Origin: a virus
Length of the DNA: 29,739 nucleotides
Strand: one strand, 5' to 3'
IMG/VR virus record: IMGVR_UViG_3300045999_012339
Span: 1 to 29,739 of that record
The notes under the pieces were generated by a model. That model had not been told where the DNA came from. It ran no database searches and was given only the letters and a program-made list of their open reading frames with translations. Positions 1,389 to 29,518 of the stretch are shown here, piece after piece. Position 1 is the stretch's first letter, and every line of letters begins with the position of its first letter. The translations under genes and the position numbers were made by a program.

Positions 1389-1420
1389 TTTGGCTTGACA
1401 GGCTAAGTTTGTTATCTTTA
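1389..1420 (+). promoter_or_regulatory. Bacteroidota-like promoter with phage-specific core
   Basis: TTTGGC at 1389-1394, then 20 bases from the end of TTTG to TATCTTTA at 1413-1420, matching the TTTG / TAnnTTTG spacing of Bacteroidota housekeeping promoters. It aligns without gaps over 32 bases to 1705-1736 and 4444-4475, which also share AAGTT in the spacer. The expected start would leave a leader of roughly 25 bases before the ATG at 1452. Confidence 0.65.
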
Positions 1421-1451
1421 GAGTGTAAAATAAGAAATAAAATTTAACAAT

Positions 1452-1703
1452 ATGACTATTTCAGCTTTGCCCGAATTGACAAATGAGTTTGCTTCAAAAC
1501 TTATTGAGAATGAATGTTCATTTGATGAGCTTATCATCACAGCCATTATGATTAAAAAATACCTTAATGCCACTGAAGGGGATCATGTAATGGCTGCTTT
1601 TGATGATGAGCATGCTCTTTACTTGATTGTTGATCAATACGGAATTGGTAATTACGAGGAAGCTGAAAAAGATTTGCTTGAATTTCAAGCTCTCTTTAAT
1701 TAA
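1452..1703 (+). CDS. Small acidic protein, unknown, early-type
   Basis: An 83-residue acidic, mostly helical protein with no family I recognise. The C-terminal part (YEEAEKDLLEFQALFN) looks like an amphipathic helix. It has no cysteines in a metal-binding arrangement and no transmembrane segment. It has its own Bacteroidota-like promoter upstream and another immediately downstream (starting two bases after its stop), so it is a single-gene or leaky unit. Such short acidic proteins behind host-type promoters are typical of early phage genes that bind host proteins, but no target can be inferred. The leader is A-rich with no Shine-Dalgarno motif. Confidence 0.6.
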   Translation: MTISALPELTNEFASKLIENECSFDELIITAIMIKKYLNATEGDHVMAAFDDEHALYLIVDQYGIGNYEEAEKDLLEFQALFN

Positions 1704-1704
1704 G

Positions 1705-1736
1705 TTTGGCTCCACACTCTAAGTTAGTTATATTTA
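1705..1736 (+). promoter_or_regulatory. Bacteroidota-like promoter with phage-specific core
   Basis: TTTGGC at 1705-1710 and TATATTTA at 1729-1736, with the same 20-base spacing as the copy at 1389. The spacer shares CTAAGTT. The downstream leader is A-rich and reaches the ATG at 1761. Confidence 0.65.
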
Positions 1737-1760
1737 AATAAAAAAGAAAAAATAAAAGTT

Positions 1761-2555
1761 ATGGAATTTTTAACAAAAGAACAAGTTAAAGCAGCAGCTC
1801 CATCTGTTTTTACCTCAGCTAAGATGACTTCAACTTCTGAGAAGTATGTTCACATCCCAACTGACCGTATTATTGAAGATATGGAAAAAATGGGATGGGG
1901 TGTTAGTAAAGCTGTTGAAGTTAGAGCCCGCCGTAATAAGGGATACCAAAAACATATGTTGGTTTTCCGTAACCCAGATGTTGTAATTCAGGGTAATGAT
2001 AATGACACTGTTTATCCTCAAATTTTAGTTACTAACTCTCATGATGGGAAAAATAGCTTCCAATTCACAGCTGGGTTGTTTAGATTGGTTTGTTCTAATG
2101 GATTGGTAATTGCAACTGAACAGTTTGCTGATAAGAAAATCCGCCATATGGGTTATTCGTTTGAAGAAGTTCAAGCCATTGTCTCTGAGTTGGTTGATCA
2201 ACTTCCAGTTACTGTTGAGGTTATGAATAAGTTTAAGAACACAGTTTTGTCTCAAGAACAAAAAGTAGAATTTGCTAAAAAAGCTATTGAAACTCGATTT
2301 GATAAAGTTAACGAAAACCAAGATATTATTAAAGATTATGGCCTCAATATTGAAGAAATTCTCAAACCCACTCGCAAGGAAGATGAGGGGAATGATTTGT
2401 GGAATGTATTTAATGTTCTCCAAGAGAAAGTAATTGATGGAGATTTTGAATATATTAGTGGAGTTAAGTTGCGTAAAGCTCGTCGGATTAAAAATTTCAA
2501 ACAAGATTTGAAAATTAATCAAGAATTATATGAAATCGCTTCTCAATTCATTTGA
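1761..2555 (+). CDS. DUF932 family phage/plasmid protein
   Basis: This 264-residue protein fits the DUF932 (phage/plasmid-like, TIGR03299-type) family. The core signature is visible at about residues 92-118: a strand with TNSHDGKNSFQF, followed by GLFRLVCSNGLVI. The N-terminal part has a strand-rich segment with basic residues (VEVRARRNKGYQKH), and the C-terminal third is helical and charged. The family is widespread on phages and plasmids; its biochemical role is not established. The gene is expressed from its own Bacteroidota-like promoter and is followed by a strong hairpin, so it looks like a one-gene early unit. It uses CGN arginine codons more often than the structural genes of this window, which use almost only AGA. 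Confidence 0.8.
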   Translation: MEFLTKEQVKAAAPSVFTSAKMTSTSEKYVHIPTDRIIEDMEKMGWGVSKAVEVRARRNKGYQKHMLVFRNPDVVIQGNDNDTVYPQILVTNSHDGKNSFQFTAGLFRLVCSNGLVIATEQFADKKIRHMGYSFEEVQAIVSELVDQLPVTVEVMNKFKNTVLSQEQKVEFAKKAIETRFDKVNENQDIIKDYGLNIEEILKPTRKEDEGNDLWNVFNVLQEKVIDGDFEYISGVKLRKARRIKNFKQDLKINQELYEIASQFI

Positions 2556-2583
2556 GATCAAAATAAATGCCATGTTGTTAAAA

Positions 2584-2605
2584 GGGGGAACAATAGGGTT
2601 CCCCC
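2584..2605 (+). terminator. GC-rich hairpin, possible terminator or mRNA end
   Basis: GGGGGAAC (2584-2591) pairs perfectly with GTTCCCCC (2598-2605) around a 6-base loop. This is an 8-bp, mostly GC stem in an otherwise AT-rich region, 28 bases after the DUF932 stop. It is followed by an A-rich rather than T-rich run, so it may be a weak terminator, a processing or stability element, or a device shielding the next start at 2624. Confidence 0.5.
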
Positions 2606-2623
2606 ACTAACAAAAAAGAAAAA

Positions 2624-2788
2624 ATGAGACCAGATTACAAAGATGTTGTTGATTCAGTTTTAAAAGAAGCCGCCAAATATGGGCTTGTAACTGAAGTTAG
2701 ATCTACAGCTATAGCTTTTATGATGGAAGATCCAACTCTAGATTCAGGTTCAGCTTATTTAATGGCTGCTAATGAATGGGATATTTAA
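2624..2788 (+). CDS. Small unknown protein, 54 residues
   Basis: An open frame of 54 residues (begins MRPDYKDVVDSVLKEAAK, ends AANEWDI), mostly helical and slightly acidic. It starts 18 bases after the GC hairpin, behind an A-rich leader (AAAAAAGAAAAA) like the leaders of neighbouring genes, which supports translation. Codon use matches the phage. No family is recognised. It ends 26 bases before the lipoprotein start, consistent with a small operon. Early accessory function is a guess. Confidence 0.5.
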   Translation: MRPDYKDVVDSVLKEAAKYGLVTEVRSTAIAFMMEDPTLDSGSAYLMAANEWDI

Positions 2789-2814
2789 TTAAAAATTTAA
2801 TACTTATAATAGAT

Positions 2815-3003
2815 ATGAAAAACTTGTTTATTGTTTTAGCCGTTGTTGGTTTCATGGGATGTGGAACCCAAGGCGATTGTGAGAACTGTGAGAATGTTGC
2901 AACTCAAGATTCTACAGTTCATGTAGCTCCTGTTGATTCTGTTGGTGAGTTACTTGACTCTCTCGAGACACTCCCATCAGCTACTCCAGAAACAGCCCAA
3001 TAA
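2815..3003 (+). CDS. Small phage-encoded lipoprotein
   Basis: The 62-residue product begins with a short lipoprotein signal peptide: MKNLF, a hydrophobic core (IVLAVVGF) and then a Cys at residue 16 (GFMGC). Downstream come several acidic residues and two further cysteines (GDCENCE), then a low-complexity Val/Ser/Asp/Pro tail (DSVGELLDSLETLPS). I chose ATG 2815 over an in-frame start 39 bases upstream, because the shorter form puts the signal peptide at the N-terminus and avoids overlap with the preceding gene. The mature protein would be anchored in an inner or outer membrane. Acidic residues after the lipid-modified Cys recall Bacteroidota surface-export signals. Superinfection exclusion or a lysis role (Rz1-like) are possible, neither shown. 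Confidence 0.6.
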   Translation: MKNLFIVLAVVGFMGCGTQGDCENCENVATQDSTVHVAPVDSVGELLDSLETLPSATPETAQ

Positions 3004-3012
3004 TGGGCTTTA

Positions 3013-3097
3013 GGAAGATTGCCAGAGTGGTTAATGGAGCGGTTTGCTAAACCGTCATCATGAAAGTGATGCGTTGGTTCGAATCCAACATCTTCCA
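3013..3097 (+). tRNA. tRNA-Ser (GCU)
   Basis: Complete class II cloverleaf. The acceptor GGAAGAT pairs with ATCTTCC, the anticodon loop TTGCTAA gives anticodon GCU (reads AGC/AGU), and the T arm is GTTGG-TTCGAAT-CCAAC. The long variable arm (CATCA/TGATG stem) is as expected for serine. The discriminator base is A rather than the usual G of serine tRNAs. CCA is not encoded (CCC follows). Confidence 0.92.
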
Positions 3098-3120
3098 CCC
3101 GAACGAAGCAAATACGGATT

Positions 3121-3194
3121 GCCGGTATGGCGGAATTGGCATACGCGCTTGACTTAGGATCAAGTTCTTGGGGGTTCGAGTCCCTCTACCGGTA
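3121..3194 (+). tRNA. tRNA-Leu (UAG) lacking a long variable arm
   Basis: Cloverleaf with acceptor GCCGGTA/TACCGGT (first pair G-U), a Leu-like D arm (GGCGGAATTGGCATACGCGC), anticodon stem CTTGA/TCAAG with loop CTTAGGA giving anticodon UAG, and T arm GGGGG-TTCGAGT-CCCTC. Only about 5 bases (TTCTT) separate the anticodon and T stems. Bacterial leucine tRNAs normally have a long variable arm, so this 74-base molecule is unusual. The discriminator is A, as expected for leucine; CCA is not encoded (CA follows). Confidence 0.85.
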
Positions 3195-3208
3195 CAAATT
3201 TTTAAATA

Positions 3209-3550
3209 ATGATTTTCCACGAGTCAAAAAGATTCACCGAAGAAGGCAAACAGAAAGTAGCATTAGTAGATATTGATGAAACTATCTGCTTCTACCCAGA
3301 ACAAAGAAGGTATGATTTATCAGTGCCTAATAATGAAAATATAGCTAAAATAAATAAACTTTATGATGAAGGTTGGAAAATAGTCTATTGGACAGCTAGA
3401 GGTTCAATCTCAGGTAAAGATTATAGGGAACATACTTTATCTCAACTTAAGAATTGGGGGTGTAAATACCATGAACTTAAATGTGGAGATGAAAAACCCC
3501 ATTTTGATTTAGTAATAGATGATAAAGCTAAAAGAATAGAAGAGTTGTGA
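3209..3550 (+). CDS. HAD-superfamily phosphatase
   Basis: A 113-residue minimal HAD-fold hydrolase. Motif I is VDIDET (D21 nucleophile, D23 acid/base), motif II is the Thr in YWTARG (T62), a Lys lies before motif IV (EKPHFD), and motif IV is LVIDDKA (D104/D105). There is no large cap domain, like the compact HAD proteins found in phages and in capsule or sugar-phosphate loci. The substrate (a nucleotide, sugar phosphate or polynucleotide 3'-phosphate) cannot be assigned. It sits right behind the tRNAs, and its stop overlaps the GTG of the next gene, so the two are translationally coupled. Confidence 0.8.
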   Translation: MIFHESKRFTEEGKQKVALVDIDETICFYPEQRRYDLSVPNNENIAKINKLYDEGWKIVYWTARGSISGKDYREHTLSQLKNWGCKYHELKCGDEKPHFDLVIDDKAKRIEEL

Positions 3551-3996
3551 AATTTAAAACAGTTGATGGAAAACCCGTAAATCCCATCATTTATACCGCT
3601 AAAATGATAGGTAGTGACCCATTTATAGAAGTGCATATAGGAACGGATTCTCAACGTTATGGGCAAGAAATTATATATGTTACAGCTATAGCTTATAGAT
3701 ATCCTAATAATGGTGTTCATTACATTTACCAAAAAAATTCTATTTTCCCAACTAAAGATAACTGGACTCGGTTGTGGAAGGAAACTGAACTATCTTTAGA
3801 GATAGCTAGCCTGATTTCGGAAAATATGCCAAGTATAAAGGTAGAGATAGACTTAGATTATAATGATGATGAATTTTATTTTAGTAATAAATTAGTCTCA
3901 GCTGCTAAGGGATGGGTTACATCTTTAGGTTATAAAGCTAATATTAAACCAAATAAACAAATAGCTACTAGAGCAGCTGATTATCATTGTAAGTAA
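3547..3996 (+). CDS. YkuK/DUF458-like RNase H-fold protein
   Basis: The 149-residue protein has the hallmark EVHIGTDSQ (Asp at residue 34) of the YkuK (DUF458) family, a predicted RNase H-like fold. A second acidic strand, VEIDLDYN, and a C-terminal acidic motif, ATRAADY, complete a plausible metal-binding set. YkuK proteins have no settled function; nuclease activity on RNA or RNA/DNA hybrids is predicted from the fold. The start is GTG overlapping the stop of the HAD gene (GTGA). The C-terminus is close to the last catalytic residue, so it is a minimal version. It is followed by an ATATTTAT motif that starts a new late unit. Confidence 0.7.
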   Translation: MKFKTVDGKPVNPIIYTAKMIGSDPFIEVHIGTDSQRYGQEIIYVTAIAYRYPNNGVHYIYQKNSIFPTKDNWTRLWKETELSLEIASLISENMPSIKVEIDLDYNDDEFYFSNKLVSAAKGWVTSLGYKANIKPNKQIATRAADYHCK

Positions 3997-4003
3997 TATT
4001 TAT
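3996..4003 (+). promoter_or_regulatory. ATATTTAT motif, putative late promoter
   Basis: Octamer overlapping the TAA stop of the preceding gene and ending 5 bases before the ATG at 4009. Confidence 0.5.
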
Positions 4004-4008
4004 TACAG

Positions 4009-4443
4009 ATGGCTATTGACCCTAATAAAATATTCGGTCTATTTGGGGGGAAGGAAGAGTTAAATTCTAAAGAACCTATTAATCAAGCTAATCCTCTAGC
4101 TATAGATTTTAATGATCCTTTTGTTAAATTAAAAATGTTCAAAAAACTTATTATGAATTATACTTTTTATAATAAGAGTTTAATTGAAATGTTTAAAAAA
4201 GCTGATCCTAAATTAGACATTAAGGAATTAGAAAGGGCTGGGGAGGCTATGTTATATGAAAGAGCTTATAGTTATATAGAAGATTTAAATCTAAAGAATA
4301 GAAAGGTTAAGAAAATTATAACCTCGAATGTGGATGAAGAATTAGAAGTTGCCTTTAAATTATCCTTAAAATATTTTGAAGAAATAGAGGAGTATGAAAA
4401 ATGTGCTTTTTTAAAAAATATTCTTGACCTTTTCTCAAAATAA
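4009..4443 (+). CDS. Unknown helical late protein
   Basis: 144 residues, mostly charged alpha helix, no family recognised. The C-terminal helix (LKYFEEIEEYEKCAFLKN) has the spacing of a UvrB/UvrC-type helical hairpin. The extreme C-terminus, ILDLFSK, resembles hydrophobic-acidic sliding-clamp-binding tails. In T4 the late co-activator gp33 and sigma gp55 both end in clamp-binding tails, and a gp55-like gene lies 1.8 kb downstream, so a gp33-like role is a possibility. The length is close to T4 gp33 (about 112 residues), but I see no sequence signature that proves it. It is preceded by an ATATTTAT motif and followed directly by a Bacteroidota-like promoter. Confidence 0.5.
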   Translation: MAIDPNKIFGLFGGKEELNSKEPINQANPLAIDFNDPFVKLKMFKKLIMNYTFYNKSLIEMFKKADPKLDIKELERAGEAMLYERAYSYIEDLNLKNRKVKKIITSNVDEELEVAFKLSLKYFEEIEEYEKCAFLKNILDLFSK

Positions 4444-4475
4444 ATTGGCCTTCCCTAAAAAGTTTTATAACTTCA
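4444..4475 (+). promoter_or_regulatory. Bacteroidota-like promoter, third copy
   Basis: ATTGGC at 4444-4449 and TAACTTCA at 4468-4475 align without gaps to the copies at 1389 and 1705. The shared spacer core is AAGTTT. It starts immediately after the stop of the preceding gene and leads to an A-rich leader before the ATG at 4512. It is weaker than the other two: the -33 T run is shorter and the -7 has TTC. Confidence 0.5.
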
Positions 4476-4511: not shown

Positions 4512-4706
4512 ATGAAACAGAGAGAGTATATAAATAATCAGATAGATAGGTTAGAAGCTAAAATGAAGCATATAGATTTTTATGCCTCTAGAGGAGACCT
4601 AGATAATGTTAGAGTTGCTTTAACAGAGTGTTTAGAGCAATTGGGTGATATTAGATCTTCTATTGAAAGAGAATCAATTGAAGGAAGAGAATTAAATAAA
4701 ATTTAA
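4512..4706 (+). CDS. Small coiled-coil protein, unknown
   Basis: 64 residues, almost entirely helical, with heptad-like hydrophobics (INNQIDRLEAKMKHI, then LTECLEQLGDIRSSI). This looks like a short helical hairpin. It has no catalytic or metal-binding motif and no signal peptide. It is the first gene behind the promoter at 4444 and is followed after 13 bases by the HD hydrolase gene, so the two probably share a transcript. The function is unknown; it could be an adaptor or antitoxin-like partner, which is only a guess. Confidence 0.55.
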   Translation: MKQREYINNQIDRLEAKMKHIDFYASRGDLDNVRVALTECLEQLGDIRSSIERESIEGRELNKI

Positions 4707-4719
4707 AAAAATAAAGGTT

Positions 4720-5496
4720 ATGGAGTTAACAGCAGAGCAAATCCAACAGAATTGGTCTTCCTTAGAAGAAGTTATTAAAACTCATATCAAAGAACCTCGC
4801 TGTACTGAATTGCTTAATTTTTATTCTAAATACTCAGAGCGTATAGCTATGATGCCTGCTGCTCATAAAAAAGAATACCATAATGCTTTCCCAGGAGGGT
4901 ATGTAGATCATGTCCTCAGAGTAGTAGAGTGTGCTCTTAAATTAAATGATGTCTGGGTTGAAATGGGAGTAGATACTTCTACTTATACTAAAGAAGAATT
5001 AGTTTTTTCTGCCTTAAATCATGACTTAGGTAAAATAGGAGATGAAGAACATGAAGCTTATATCCCTCAGACTGATCAATGGAGAAAAGAAAAATTAGGT
5101 GAAATTTATCAACATAGTGAAAAATTAGCCTTTGCCTCTATTCCTGATCGTGGCCTATATCTCCTCCAGGCCCATGGTGTTAAATACACCTTTAATGAAA
5201 TGATAGCCATTCAGACTCATGATGGATTATATGATGAAGCTAATAAAAAATATCTAATTAACTTCTCTCCAGCTACTAAACCCAGAACTGCCCTTCCTTA
5301 TATTGTCCATCAAGCTGATTTAATGGCAGCTCGTATTGAGTTTGAAAAAGAATGGCTCCCATCTTTTAAAGGAACTAAAGCTGAAGCTAAAAAGGAAAAT
5401 TTTACCTTAACTAAGGAGAAAAAGACCCCAGTTAAGCAAAAAGCTTTAAGCAGTATACAAAGTGTTAACTTAAAAAATATGTTAGATAATCTATGA
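4720..5496 (+). CDS. HD-domain metal-dependent phosphohydrolase
   Basis: 258 residues with a clear HD domain. The first His is in GGYVDHVLRV (H64), the HD pair is in LNHDLGKIGD (H101-D102), a third His is in IAIQTHDGLYD, and the final Asp is in VHQADLMAARIEFE. Enzymes of this superfamily hydrolyse nucleotides or cyclic nucleotides. In a phage a role in nucleotide-pool control or in removing host alarm nucleotides is plausible, but the substrate is not visible. The last ~45 residues are Lys-rich and probably disordered (KKENFTLTKEKKTPVKQK). The A-rich leader lacks a Shine-Dalgarno motif. Its stop overlaps the start of the following membrane protein gene (ATGA), indicating coupling. Confidence 0.8.
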   Translation: MELTAEQIQQNWSSLEEVIKTHIKEPRCTELLNFYSKYSERIAMMPAAHKKEYHNAFPGGYVDHVLRVVECALKLNDVWVEMGVDTSTYTKEELVFSALNHDLGKIGDEEHEAYIPQTDQWRKEKLGEIYQHSEKLAFASIPDRGLYLLQAHGVKYTFNEMIAIQTHDGLYDEANKKYLINFSPATKPRTALPYIVHQADLMAARIEFEKEWLPSFKGTKAEAKKENFTLTKEKKTPVKQKALSSIQSVNLKNMLDNL

Positions 5497-5771
5497 CAAC
5501 AATTATAATTAGTATATTAGGTTGTTTGGTCGTGATCTTAGGATTCACGACCTTTAACCTTTTAAGAAAAAACGAAAAACAAGAAGATATCTTATTAGGA
5601 TATCAAACATATCTAGATCAAATTTCTAAAGCTATTGAGTTTGCTGATGAAAAAGTTAAGAATATAGATAGTAGAGGTATTTTTAAAAATGATGATGATG
5701 TAAGTTTTATATATGAGGAAATAAAAAATTTACAACACCTCTTATCAAATTTTAAAATAGATAAATTATGA
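5493..5771 (+). CDS. Single-pass membrane protein next to gp55
   Basis: 92 residues. An N-terminal hydrophobic helix (IIISILGCLVVILGFTTF, residues 4-21) is followed by positive residues (LLRKNEK), giving a signal-anchor with the C-terminus probably in the cytoplasm. The soluble part is helical, ending with an acidic motif (SRGIFKNDDDVSFIYEEI) that recalls small conserved proteins of marine T4-like phages. The gene overlaps both neighbours by 4 bases, between the HD hydrolase and the sigma factor, so all three are coupled. The function is unknown. Confidence 0.65.
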   Translation: MTTIIISILGCLVVILGFTTFNLLRKNEKQEDILLGYQTYLDQISKAIEFADEKVKNIDSRGIFKNDDDVSFIYEEIKNLQHLLSNFKIDKL

Positions 5772-6484
5772 TAGAAGGAGTTGTAAAGAAAAAAAAACCA
5801 TCATCAAATAATTATTTTACTCAAGAAACTGAGGATGCTATAGTGGCCTATAATAAGGCCACTTCCACTGATGAAAAGGCAAAAATTTATCATAGACATA
5901 TCCACTACGCCTTTTTTAAATTAACAGAAAATATTATTCATACTTTTAAATTCTATTATACTGAAGTAGATAATATTGAAGATCTTCAACATGAGATTAT
6001 AACTTTCCTCCTCCAAAAAATTCATCTTTTTGATCCTAGTAAAGGAGCTAAAGCCTATTCATATTTTGGAACCATAGTTAAGAGATACCTAATAATCCAG
6101 AACACTAAAAACTATAAAAAAAGAGTAGACAAAGCCCCAGTTGAAGAATTATATAAGGACCTTAACCACTCTTATGAATTAGACACACCTCTTAACCAAA
6201 CTGATGCTATATCTGATTTTATAGATCAATATGTAGAATATTGCTCTGAAAATATTTATGAACTTTTTCCCAAAGATAAAGATGCCCAAGTAGCTGATGC
6301 TATATTAGAAGTATTTAGGAAAAGAGAAAATATAGATATTTTTAATAAAAAAGCTCTCTACATCTATATTAGGGAAATGATAGATGTTAAAACCCCACAT
6401 ATAACACGTGTAGCTGATCGTTTAGGTGAGATATATAAAGAACAATATCTTTTTTATTTAGATAACGGATATACCAATTTTTAA
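5768..6484 (+). CDS. 55: gp55-like late sigma factor
   Basis: 238 residues. Residues 71-109 form a sigma-70 region 2-like segment (EDLQHEIITFLLQKI, then FDPSKGAKAYSYFGTIVKRY), the part that binds the RNA polymerase clamp helices and melts the -10 element. The N-terminal FTQETEDAIVAYNK segment also recalls T4-like gp55. T4 gp55 is about 185 residues; this one has an extra C-terminal portion (about 160-238) with a helix-turn-helix-like stretch (IREMIDVKTPHITRVADRL) and a hydrophobic-acidic end (YLFYLDNGYTNF) that could serve as clamp-binding tail. In T4, gp55 directs transcription from a bare -10 box with gp33 and the gp45 clamp. The candidate box in this phage is ATATTTAT. It is the last gene of the coupled HD hydrolase/membrane protein/gp55 cluster and directly precedes the late baseplate operon. 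Confidence 0.8.
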   Translation: MIEGVVKKKKPSSNNYFTQETEDAIVAYNKATSTDEKAKIYHRHIHYAFFKLTENIIHTFKFYYTEVDNIEDLQHEIITFLLQKIHLFDPSKGAKAYSYFGTIVKRYLIIQNTKNYKKRVDKAPVEELYKDLNHSYELDTPLNQTDAISDFIDQYVEYCSENIYELFPKDKDAQVADAILEVFRKRENIDIFNKKALYIYIREMIDVKTPHITRVADRLGEIYKEQYLFYLDNGYTNF

Positions 6485-6491
6485 CCAAGAT

Positions 6492-6499
6492 ATATTTAT
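6492..6499 (+). promoter_or_regulatory. ATATTTAT motif, putative late promoter of the baseplate operon
   Basis: Octamer inside the 19-base gap after gp55, ending 4 bases before the ATG at 6504. It heads the tightly packed baseplate gene cluster. Confidence 0.55.
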
Positions 6500-8782: not shown

Positions 8783-8790
8783 ATATTTAT
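8783..8790 (+). promoter_or_regulatory. ATATTTAT motif, putative late promoter
   Basis: Octamer ending 5 bases before the ATG at 8796, in a 17-base gap inside the baseplate cluster. Confidence 0.5.
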
Positions 8791-19457: not shown

Positions 19458-19465
19458 ATATTTAT
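19458..19465 (+). promoter_or_regulatory. ATATTTAT motif, putative late promoter (17 bases from start)
   Basis: Octamer in the 33-base gap before the ATG at 19483. The spacing to the start is 17 bases, longer than the usual 4-5, so this mRNA would have a short A-rich leader. Confidence 0.45.
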
Positions 19466-24179: not shown

Positions 24180-24186
24180 TATTTAT
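24179..24186 (+). promoter_or_regulatory. ATATTTAT motif, putative late promoter (14 bases from start)
   Basis: Octamer overlapping the stop of the nuclease gene, 14 bases before the ATG at 24201. It heads the unit with the kinase and the 1065-residue multi-enzyme protein. Confidence 0.45.
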
Positions 24187-24200
24187 CACAAATACTTGCT

Positions 24201-24962
24201 ATGAGGCTATTGTCTATTCTTTTAGAGGCTGTAACCAGTCCTAAAGCTATATTCTTGACTGGTCCTTCTGGAGCTGGTAAGACAACTTTACTTAAGCAGT
24301 TAAATCTTCAAGGATTTGAAACTATAAACGTTGATGATACTTATGAAGCCCTACTCAAAGCCTCAGGATTTGGAACAGATTTTAAAAAGTTTACTCCTGA
24401 TCAAATAGCACAAGCAGGTAAATTTATGAGTCAAGCCCGAACAGCTACCAAAGAAAAAGAAGCAGAAGTTATATCTAATGCTAAAAATATAATCATAGAC
24501 TCCCCAGGAGCTGCTTCTGGACCTTTATTAAAGAAAAAACAAGAACTTGAAGATTTAGGTTATGATACTTTTATGTTTATGGTTATTGTTCCTGTAATGA
24601 CTTCCTTAGATAGAAATTCTAAACGTGATAGGTCTTTACCTCCAAGTGCTGTTATAAAAAATTGGGAGGGAGTATTTAAAAATATACCTATTTATAAATC
24701 TGAATTTGGTCCAAATATGACTATTATTAATAATAGCCCTGAAGGAGAAAATTTTGAATTTGATCCTAATGAATACATAAAAAGATACATTGAAGGTGAA
24801 GATAAAGTAGTAGGTAAACCTAAAACTCCTGAGGAGATAGCTAAAAAAAAGAAAGATATGGATGAACTATTTAAAAATATCCAACAATTATTAAGTCAAA
24901 AAATTAAATTTGACCCCTTTCCCTCAGCTAAATCTAAATTAAATAAATTTTTAACTCAGTGA
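24201..24962 (+). CDS. P-loop kinase with capsid-targeting-like leader
   Basis: 253 residues. A 9-residue hydrophobic leader (MRLLSILLE) is followed by AVTSPK and then the P-loop domain: FLTGPSGAGKTTLLKQL (Walker A at 21-29), a strand with INVDD, and a Walker B-like IIIDSPGA. The segment RNSKRDRSLPPSAVIKNWEG gives a basic lid. The pattern is that of small AAA_33/zeta-toxin-type ATP kinases acting on a nucleotide or metabolite; the substrate is unknown. ILLE followed by Ala matches the gp21 prohead-protease pattern and nearly repeats the N-terminus of the 8796 protein, so the mature kinase may be a packaged, injected enzyme. The C-terminus is a charged helix. The stop overlaps the GTG of the next gene. 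Confidence 0.65.
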   Translation: MRLLSILLEAVTSPKAIFLTGPSGAGKTTLLKQLNLQGFETINVDDTYEALLKASGFGTDFKKFTPDQIAQAGKFMSQARTATKEKEAEVISNAKNIIIDSPGAASGPLLKKKQELEDLGYDTFMFMVIVPVMTSLDRNSKRDRSLPPSAVIKNWEGVFKNIPIYKSEFGPNMTIINNSPEGENFEFDPNEYIKRYIEGEDKVVGKPKTPEEIAKKKKDMDELFKNIQQLLSQKIKFDPFPSAKSKLNKFLTQ

Positions 24963-27900
24963 ATAGATTAGTTCAAGAATTAATTAGACCTTTTTTAAAT
25001 GAGGTTGATTCAAAATATGATGTTGTAATTTATGGAGGTGGATTTAAACCACCTACAAAGGGACACCTTAAAACAGCCTTAAGAGCATATCAAATACCAT
25101 CTAATGAACATCAAATTGTAATTGGAGCTGGAGTTAGAGACAACATAACATCAGAAGCCTCATTAAAAATTTGGCAATTATATCAAAATAAAGAAGGTTT
25201 ACCCCAAGATATTAAAATATTTCAAGCTCCTTCTCCTGTAAAATATGCTTTAGATTTAGCTAAAGAAAATCCTGATTTAAAAATTGCTTTTATAGCTGGT
25301 ATTAGAGACAATGATGATTTAGACAGTGCTGAAAAATTAAAAAAATCATTCGCCCCTTTAGGAATCCAGGTAGAAATAATTCAAGACGACTCAGCTGAAG
25401 TTAGTGGAACTAAAGTTAGAAGAGCTTTTTTACGTAAGGATAAAGATACTTTTTTATCTCTTATGCCTAAAAATTCTGGGGAAGAAGTTTGGAACATTTT
25501 AACTCGTTCTCTTATTCCTGAAATTCAAGAAGCTCAATCTAAAATGGGGTATAGAGCTGGTTTATTTAACCCATCACAACCTGCTGAACGTCTAAAAGAT
25601 AAAGGCATTGGTATTGTAAAATCTAAAGTTGGTCTTTTAGGTACTGGATATTATTTTATGGGTAGTTTAGAGGATGTTAAAAGACTACAGGACCAATTAG
25701 GATATGATACTATATCACAAATAGATCTATCTAAATATGATTTATTTAGACCGGATGATCCCACAGGATTTTACGAGAATATAAAAGCCACAACAGCATA
25801 TTTACATGGACTTAAACCTGAAGATCTACAGGATTCTGACGTGAAAAACAATATTGATGACGCGGTTGATGGGTTTTCAAGCTATTTAAACTTAAATAAA
25901 AAAGAAACATATAATATATTTAAAGATTATCTAAAAGATGTTTTTAAAAGAAATGATGGTGATTTATTAACAAATCGTTTGTTAAAAAATTATGATGGTA
26001 TTGATTTAACAGGTACTGAATATGATGATTTTGGGGCTGGTTCTTTAATCTTTAATGGAAAATTAAAAGATGGAACCCATTCAGAGTTAGAACCAATTGA
26101 AGAAAAAATTTATTTTAAACCTGAGCCTAATATAGGTTTAGATGATGTTGAATTTTTAGACCAATTTGCTGATTCTAAATTAGCCCCCTTAGATATAGAC
26201 CTATCAGGACAACACTTTATTGATAGGCTAAACGACCCTAGAAACAACCCAGAGATTGAAGTTGAAGAATTAGAAGATTTTTTTGATAAATTAGGTGATA
26301 AAAAAGATCAATTTATTGATTTGTTAAATAGCGATGGTGAAATTGTAGCTCAAGATAGACAAACTAACATTAATATTCCATTTATTAAAAAAACAAAGAA
26401 TAAAGCTGCGGCTAAAACTATAATGCGTAAAAGCATTTTTAAAACTTTAAATCCTGTCCTTTCTCTTCAAGAAGGTAGATATGATGCTGAAGTAACTACT
26501 CAATCTCGCTACATAGTTAACCAACTTAAAAATAATTTTGGGGTTAAATATGAAGAAGAAACTGGAGGTAATGTAGGAAATATTGAATATGATTTAACAT
26601 TTAAATTTAGACCTTCTAAAAAATTAGGTATTATTCCTTTTATAGTTGATGGAGAAGCTGACTATAACGCAGCTGAAATAAAAATCCAATACAATCCAGA
26701 ATCCTTTCCAAAAGAATATAATAACTTAATAGCTGAATTAAAAGAAACATTAAGACATGAGTTAGAACATATATCTCAATTTAATTTTGAAAAAGGAGTT
26801 GAAATAAAATATCAAGATGGAATGCCCTTAGCTCAATATTTAGTTCTTGACGCTGAAGTACCTGCGTTTGTTCAAGGTTTATATAAAAGAGCTAAAACTA
26901 AAAAAATACCTTTACAAGCAGCTATTGATGAATTTTTTGATGAGAGAAGTAATGAATTAACAGGCGAAGAAGAAGCCAGTGTTAGAAAAGTATGGGACAG
27001 ATGGATTCGTTTAAATTTACCCCAAATTAAATTAAATGAAGGTGTTAAAGACTTACGCCCTAGAATTGAAGCCATTATAAAAAAACACAACATCTCAGCT
27101 AAAGAATTAAAAGCTCAATTAAAAAAGGGTACAAAAGTAGAAAAAGAACATACTTCAAATCCAACAGTAGCTATGAAAATAGCGTTAGATCATCTTGAAG
27201 AAAATCCTAATTACTATGATGTTTTAGCTAAAGTAGGTTTAGAAGAAGAAGAGGGTAAAGCCGCTCCTTATGGATCAGGATATAAACCACTTGAAGAAGA
27301 ATTAAAACCCCTTATTTTAGACTTTACATCTTTTTTAGTTACTAATGGCATGAAACTTCATCCATTCCCTAAAATTGAATTCATTAGTAATGATGAAGAA
27401 AATGCTAAAGACCCCTTAGGCAAAACCGCTTACTACAACCCAGAAACAAAGTGTATAACTCTATATACCCTTAACAGACATCCTAAAGATATTTTAAGAA
27501 GTTATTCTCATGAGTTAGTCCACCATATGCAAAATATTGAAGATAGGCTTAAACCTATGACTACTGCTAATGTTTATGAGGATGAAGAGTTAGCTAATAT
27601 AGAAAAAGAAGCCCATGAATTAGGTAGTATGAACTTAAGAAAGTGGGAAGATTCAAAAAAAACTAACTTAAAAGAAGAAACAACTCCTGAATATAAGATT
27701 TACTCTGATATGGATGGAGTTATAACTGATTTTGATACTCAATTTAAAAAAATAGCAGGAATGCTTCCTGAAGAGTATGAAACTAAAAATGGAAAAGAGG
27801 CTTTTTGGGATTTAATAGGTAGCAAAGGAGTAGGATTTTGGGTTGGAATGCCTTGGATGCTTGATGGGGATGAATATTGGAGTTATATAGAAAAATATAG

Positions 27901-28156
27901 CCCTACAATCCTATCAGCTCCTTCCCGAGATGAATCTTCAAGACTAGGAAAAAGATTATGGATTAAAAAATACCTTCCCGGCACTAAACTTATCCTATCC
28001 CCAGCTAAACTTAAACAAAAGTACGCGGCTCCTAATCATATTTTAATAGATGATAAACCTTCTAATATAGAAGAATGGAGAAGTCAAGGTGGAATTGGTA
28101 TATTACATACATCTGCTGCTGATACAATTAGTCAACTTAAAGAATTAGGTTTATGA
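24959..28156 (+). CDS. Multi-enzyme protein, probable prohead-processed polyprotein
   Basis: 1065 residues, GTG start overlapping the previous stop. Domains in order: leader helix (1-15, ending FLNE); nucleotidyltransferase (about 20-185) with GGGFKPPTKGH (HxGH-like) and VSGTKVRR; a region (192-400) with GLLGTGYYFMGSLEDVKRL recalling ART/PARP folds; a phage domain with HFIDRLNDPRNN, INIPF and KTIMRKSIFKT (about 419-497); a zinc peptidase-like domain with RHELEHISQ (599-607) and a Glu in LDAEVPAF; a DUF5661-like segment (GTKVEKEHTSNPTVAMKIAL) followed by a second HExxH, SHELVHHMQ (850-858); and a C-terminal HAD nucleotidase (YSDMDGVITDFD; LIDDKPSN). Gp21-like sites fall between blocks: IQE191-A, LQE505-G, LNE694-G and LKE906-E. 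Substrates are unknown; processing and injection are inferred. Confidence 0.75.
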   Translation: MNRLVQELIRPFLNEVDSKYDVVIYGGGFKPPTKGHLKTALRAYQIPSNEHQIVIGAGVRDNITSEASLKIWQLYQNKEGLPQDIKIFQAPSPVKYALDLAKENPDLKIAFIAGIRDNDDLDSAEKLKKSFAPLGIQVEIIQDDSAEVSGTKVRRAFLRKDKDTFLSLMPKNSGEEVWNILTRSLIPEIQEAQSKMGYRAGLFNPSQPAERLKDKGIGIVKSKVGLLGTGYYFMGSLEDVKRLQDQLGYDTISQIDLSKYDLFRPDDPTGFYENIKATTAYLHGLKPEDLQDSDVKNNIDDAVDGFSSYLNLNKKETYNIFKDYLKDVFKRNDGDLLTNRLLKNYDGIDLTGTEYDDFGAGSLIFNGKLKDGTHSELEPIEEKIYFKPEPNIGLDDVEFLDQFADSKLAPLDIDLSGQHFIDRLNDPRNNPEIEVEELEDFFDKLGDKKDQFIDLLNSDGEIVAQDRQTNINIPFIKKTKNKAAAKTIMRKSIFKTLNPVLSLQEGRYDAEVTTQSRYIVNQLKNNFGVKYEEETGGNVGNIEYDLTFKFRPSKKLGIIPFIVDGEADYNAAEIKIQYNPESFPKEYNNLIAELKETLRHELEHISQFNFEKGVEIKYQDGMPLAQYLVLDAEVPAFVQGLYKRAKTKKIPLQAAIDEFFDERSNELTGEEEASVRKVWDRWIRLNLPQIKLNEGVKDLRPRIEAIIKKHNISAKELKAQLKKGTKVEKEHTSNPTVAMKIALDHLEENPNYYDVLAKVGLEEEEGKAAPYGSGYKPLEEELKPLILDFTSFLVTNGMKLHPFPKIEFISNDEENAKDPLGKTAYYNPETKCITLYTLNRHPKDILRSYSHELVHHMQNIEDRLKPMTTANVYEDEELANIEKEAHELGSMNLRKWEDSKKTNLKEETTPEYKIYSDMDGVITDFDTQFKKIAGMLPEEYETKNGKEAFWDLIGSKGVGFWVGMPWMLDGDEYWSYIEKYSPTILSAPSRDESSRLGKRLWIKKYLPGTKLILSPAKLKQKYAAPNHILIDDKPSNIEEWRSQGGIGILHTSAADTISQLKELGL

Positions 28157-28731: not shown

Positions 28732-28739
28732 ATATTTAT
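28732..28739 (+). promoter_or_regulatory. ATATTTAT motif, putative late promoter
   Basis: Octamer directly after the TAG stop at 28729-28731, ending 4 bases before the ATG at 28744. Confidence 0.5.
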
Positions 28740-29507: not shown

Positions 29508-29514
29508 TATTTAT
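29507..29514 (+). promoter_or_regulatory. ATATTTAT motif, putative late promoter
   Basis: Octamer overlapping the TAA stop of the preceding gene and ending 4 bases before the ATG at 29519. Confidence 0.5.
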
Positions 29515-29518
29515 AGTC

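Follow-up and report, generated by a model that had tools for sequence, protein, structure and literature searches.

Three 32-base elements recur on one strand of a 29,739-base IMG/VR viral fragment (the window), and they raise the question of which polymerase would read them and whether bases in their spacers mark a phage activator site. They had been aligned without gaps in an initial annotation, which took them for Bacteroidota-type promoters carrying an additional conserved core, and the sequences are found there as described, with TTGGC, AAGTT and TAnnTT(T/C)A in register. Judged from sequence, they are probably promoters for early transcription in a T4-like myovirus that infects Flavobacteriia, in a phage-specific variant read by the host sigma-A RNA polymerase. 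As the window is a fragment, a search of its relatives took the place of a motif search of the complete genome.

Three repeated elements and the genes they precede

The + strand of the window holds three copies of TTGGC-N18-TAnnTT[TC]A and the - strand none, with no fourth copy within the 29,739 bases; 200 dinucleotide shuffles, both strands counted, give a chance mean of 0.115 (maximum 2). If AAGTT is also required in register, the count is three versus none over all shuffles, an optimistic figure because the pattern was chosen post hoc. Promoters 1, 2 and 3 lie 31, 24 and 36 nt, respectively, from the ATG of the ORFs at 1452, 1761 and 4512, whose starts are mechanical calls. Promoters 1 and 2, with 26 of 32 bases in common, are nearly duplicates, and promoter 3, which begins with ATTGG instead of TTTGG and whose box has AA and TTCA, is more divergent and the weakest match among the three. 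All three have the -33 TTG at N20 from the -7 box, as in Bacteroidota sigma-A promoters, but their boxes end in TTTA, TTTA and TTCA rather than as TAnnTTTG; given this final A and the lack of enrichment of the A-form in hosts (see below), they constitute a variant of the Bacteroidota sigma-A type and not a plain member. The elements themselves are very probably promoters. An E. coli-type promoter in site 1 (TTGACA-N18-TAGAGT) was discarded as a chance occurrence, the total from a generic scan being that of the shuffles (29 found, 25 expected).

Features of the window discussed in the text
Feature	Position	Strand	Description
Promoter 1	1389..1420	+	TTTGGCTTGACAGGCTAAGTTTGTTATCTTTA; TTG 1390-1392 (-33), 20-nt spacer, -7 box TATCTTTA 1413-1420
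ORF of 83 aa	1452..1703	+	No family match; first gene downstream of promoter 1
Promoter 2	1705..1736	+	TTTGGCTCCACACTCTAAGTTAGTTATATTTA; TTG 1706-1708, 20-nt spacer, -7 box TATATTTA 1729-1736
DUF932 protein gene	1761..2555	+	Pfam PF06067, E 4e-33; 43% identity to immuto DUF932 protein
Promoter 3	4444..4475	+	ATTGGCCTTCCCTAAAAAGTTTTATAACTTCA; TTG 4445-4447, 20-nt spacer, -7 box TAACTTCA 4468-4475
ORF of 64 aa	4512..4706	+	No family match; first gene downstream of promoter 3
Metal-dependent phosphohydrolase-like gene	4720-5496		Next after ORF 4512..4706
Weakly sigma-like protein	5768..6484	+	PHROG 234 late sigma factor, E 9e-4; Sigma70_r2, E 2e-4, below cut-off
TATTTAT motif	69-75, 936-942, 3997-4003, 6493-6499, 8784-8790, 19459-19465, 24180-24186, 28733-28739, 29509-29515		Mostly 4-8 nt before start codon

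The best isolated relatives of the tail and DUF932 genes of the window are in Flavobacterium phage vB_FspM_immuto (Immutovirus; hereafter immuto), whose host is Flavobacterium sp. LMO8, which lends support to the earlier proposal that the elements point to the host group, here Flavobacteriia. Window and immuto have the gene order DUF932, phosphohydrolase (77159-77896 in immuto) and sigma-like protein (46% identity to immuto gp118) in common, and an identical promoter class. They differ in that immuto has about 30 additional small genes, with promoters, between DUF932 and the phosphohydrolase, and CTA or CCT after TTG instead of the GGC of the window.

Two further features of the window may be mentioned. 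Genes for tRNA-Ser(GCT) and tRNA-Leu(TAG) lie at 3013-3195, between the promoter-2 and promoter-3 transcription units, and a 37-base stretch of the tRNA-Leu gave no exact match among 85,000 bacterial and archaeal genomes. A single 1065-aa ORF at 24959-28156 appears to be a fusion of a nucleotidyltransferase-like N-terminus (VIYGGGFKPPTKGHL), DUF5661 and a C-terminal HAD-like nucleotidase; its immuto counterpart is annotated as two genes, NadR-like and 5'-nucleotidase (107-110 kb).

Conservation at orthologous sites and promoter arrays in relatives

Relatives of the DUF932 protein are encoded on 32 viral contigs. Between close relatives most of the spacer has diverged at the three sites, but TTG, the -7 box and the exact distance between them are retained. 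TTGGC and TATMTTTA are kept at the site orthologous to promoter 1 in 10 relatives. Promoter 2 has its equivalent before the DUF932 gene in relatives with 55-98% amino acid identity, reading TTGG(C/T)-N18-TATMTT with a quite different spacer at ~55-64% identity, and the equivalent in immuto is at 63128. AAGTT, which had been proposed as an activator box, is replaced in orthologues by AAATT, AAGAT or AAAGT at site 1, by AAGCT or AAATT at site 2, and by AGATT, AGGTT or TTCCT at site 3, and is in the aligned position in none of 34 immuto promoters; orthologous sites and arrays hence rule it out as a conserved core. The other proposed addition, GGC, fared better, in that orthologues of the three window sites retain it, as does the DUF932 promoter in more distant relatives. 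Nevertheless, TTGGC is a minority variant in the wider promoter class (22 of 205), and because the bases after TTG vary in the arrays (CTA, CCT, GTT, TTC, ACC, GCT), GGC is no requirement even if locally conserved.

In contigs L021-L027 (also L013-L020), roughly 15-40 bases ahead of the DUF932 promoter, a direct repeat GTCATATTAAAGTCATA is found just before TTTGGC. This repeat of a more distant clade is absent from the window and is a candidate operator or activator site.

The initial annotation had also predicted further copies beyond the window, and this was borne out by strand-biased arrays of 12-35 copies before small genes in relatives. In the complete genome of immuto, TTG-N20-TAT[AC]TTTA occurs 33 times on the + strand and once on the - strand (mean 1.3 in shuffles), most copies clustering at 60.9-76.2 kb ahead of small genes that include DUF932. 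G004, a close relative, has 19 TTG-N19/20-TATMTTTA elements, all on one strand (0.2-0.3 per form in shuffles), mostly at 1.2-10.5 kb, before small genes and left of the region that matches the left end of the window; another relative, G002, has 13 versus 0 on the opposite strand. Repetition, strand bias and position before small genes are what a phage early promoter array would present, although some of the copies in a phage stem from duplication and their counts are not independent. No such array was seen in Flavobacterium phages 11b, FCL-2 and 6H. Since G004 continues leftward with most of its elements there, and given the immuto cluster, the window promoters are likely the tail end of an array with one promoter before nearly every small, probably early gene. 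In immuto, G004, L197 and related contigs, the leaders 0-20 nt past the -7 box are repeated in each phage (GGTATCAATAATTA in immuto, GGTTATAAGATTTA in G004), which suggests that arrays may grow by duplication or that the 5' UTR may have a conserved function.

The early promoters of T4, many host-sigma promoters with a consensus richer than that of the host, may be compared with this class. The likeness would lie in many copies on one strand before small early genes, with host elements kept and extra bases conserved; the sigma factor and consensus are different, and here a base conserved in the host is replaced.

The last base of the -7 box in phages and hosts

The -7 box of Flavobacterium ends in G (TAnnTTTG), with several sub-types in F. 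psychrophilum (PMC9723704). In the upstream regions of F. resistens (1.2 Mb), TAnnTTTG occurs 274 times in sense versus 133 in antisense orientation, compared to 269 versus 249 for TAnnTTTA; whole-genome counts of TTG-TAnnTTTG gave only a weak signal until restricted to upstream regions. Before Flavobacterium genes, TTG-N19/20-TAnnTTTG was found 37 times at the two spacings, versus ~4 times at each other spacing. Across 61 genomes of the genus Flavobacterium, a set that leaves out LMO8, the host strain of immuto itself, the G-form TTTG-N19/20-TATMTTTG is enriched (1573 versus 548 for a reversed-pattern control) and the A-form is not (1048 versus 1094). Flavobacterium rRNA promoters, with TTG-N19/20-TAnnTTTGCACCCG before 16S rRNA, were rejected as a model for the A-form, as their boxes end in TTTGCACCCG. 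The rRNA promoters also carry CACCCG after the box, which the phage class lacks.

Against the 33 A-form copies at N20 on its + strand, immuto has 0 host-form (TTTG) promoters at N20 and 1 at N19. With the last base left unconstrained, immuto has 29 boxes with a TTG at N20 and a downstream start codon, every one of them ending in A; in this set, G also precedes TTG, an A-rich stretch lies upstream, and TTC occupies -4 to -2 of the box (97% C at -2). When viral contigs were scanned for TTG-N16-TTCNTATATTTAGGTAT, at least 120 matches were obtained, and in ~1 Mb of contigs among the matches listed, each selected for holding one A-form site, A is the last base in 198 of 198 other TTG-N20-TAT[AC]TTTN sites that precede a start codon, with about 5 sites at each spacing other than N20. 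Viral contigs selected for a G-form site carry both forms (27 A, 30 G), and hence viruses use the G-form too and the strict A is a property of this group. On sequence grounds, then, the real peculiarity of these promoters is the A-ending -7 box and not an extra core. The proposed match to Bacteroidota promoters therefore stands for the -33/-7 layout and spacing, but not for the final base, A instead of the host's G. Altogether, the phage class shares with primary sigma-A promoters of Bacteroidota (TTG at -33, TAnnTTTG at -7) both elements, the 19-20 nt distance and the short leader, and differs from them in the final A and, for the immuto type, in a spacer of exactly 20 and the TTC preceding the box.

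At 18607-37015, immuto (L258, NC_055915) encodes DpdA, QueC, QueD, QueE, QueF and FolE, and because of these genes its DNA probably holds 7-deazaguanine. QueC is also present in the relative G007 and was not found in the close relatives of the window, which are fragmentary contigs. A link between 7-deazaguanine and the avoided G of the -7 box is possible.

We found no published description of such phage promoters in the open-access literature, and little has been described of the transcription programmes of phages that infect Flavobacteriia, a group abundant in aquatic systems. The rule TTG-N20-TATMTTTA, often followed by GGTAT, finds arrays of early genes on viral contigs and gives a hint of the host group, and the strict swap of A for G raises the questions of what role the last base has in the unusual Bacteroidota -7 box and why this phage group rejects the G of its host.

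Reading of the promoters and a second motif

In the explanation that we favour, the -33 TTG and the TAnnTT(T/C)A box at -7, set 20 (or 19) nt apart, would be bound by the host's RNA polymerase carrying sigma-A, its primary sigma factor, and transcription would begin a few bases past the box, 20-35 nt upstream of the start codon. The class would be a phage variant of the host promoter with A in place of G as the last base of the box, and the final A, together with the TTC directly before the box and the A-rich upstream stretch of the isolated relative, would tune promoter strength or provide escape from host control. Reading by sigma-A is proposed on two grounds: the host elements are both present at the distance seen in the host, and immuto is almost devoid of TTTG promoters, so that the A-form must be read if host polymerase starts early transcription. 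We infer promoter activity in vivo, early timing and reading by unmodified host sigma-A, and, from position and gene type, early action without a phage factor; since host genomes show no enrichment of the A-form, efficient reading by host sigma-A alone is not certain.

It is unlikely that these promoters are simply of the host sigma-A type with nothing specific to phages, GGC, AAGTT and the final A falling within normal variation. Layout and spacing are those of the host, whose -7 box itself has sub-types in F. psychrophilum, and TTTGGC-N17-GTATCTTTG is overwhelmingly from Bacteroidota (66 of 80 among the matches listed, by title); the A/G counts in the 61 genomes, in F. resistens and in immuto nevertheless argue against it. 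Less probable still are middle-type promoters, at which a phage activator would act on the GGC/AAGTT spacer like MotA of T4. Here too repeated phage promoters share bases outside the host consensus, GGC and AAGTT are in register in all three window copies, and GGC is kept in orthologues. However, the spacer core is lost at orthologous sites, TTGGC is infrequent in the wider class, and the analogy fails on anatomy: T4 MotA promoters lack a -35 element, whereas the -33 TTG is present and strict here, both host elements being intact at a fixed distance with none replaced. Profiles for MotA and AsiA (Pfam PF09114, PF09010) gave no match, which carries no weight as they gave none in control genomes either.

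It is rather doubtful that the A-form is read or favoured by a host polymerase that the phage has altered, or by an injected factor, such that one base separates phage and host promoters. The A/G contrast is all-or-none throughout a phage group, and the 7-deazaguanine modification genes of immuto could mean altered G contacts on its DNA; on the other hand, no factor was identified, the G of TTG is retained, and A-form and G-form coexist in other viral contigs. Equally doubtful is the final A as a phage identity mark, by which a phage factor or modified phage DNA would shift host polymerase to TAnnTTTA over TAnnTTTG; if true, a single base would divide phage from host transcription and aid host shut-off. 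We consider it quite improbable that the phage sigma-like protein (gp55-like gene at 5768), and not host sigma-A, reads the promoters. The A-form deviates from the host consensus and a weak sigma-region-2 match is encoded nearby, but TTG is strictly kept, while T4 gp55-type sigmas, which read late promoters that lack a -35 element, need none (PMC2988020), and an early class would first need a host-readable promoter. A better fit for that protein is a second motif, TATTTAT, which lacks a -33 element and precedes structural genes.

TATTTAT, usually as ATATTTAT(A/T)A, lies 4-21 nt upstream of eight ATG starts in the window, compared to one to four for permuted heptamers, and as ATATTTAT it has a strong strand bias in the window (13 to 1). 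In immuto it precedes 31 ATG starts, 30 of them on one strand, including those of the gp20, tail sheath, tail tube and tape measure genes. By analogy, it resembles the T4 late promoter in role, preceding late genes in a class without a -33 element, and the sigma-like protein is a candidate reader of this late-promoter-like motif and not of promoters 1-3. The usual distance of 4-5 nt from TATTTAT to ATG in the window would give nearly leaderless late transcripts.
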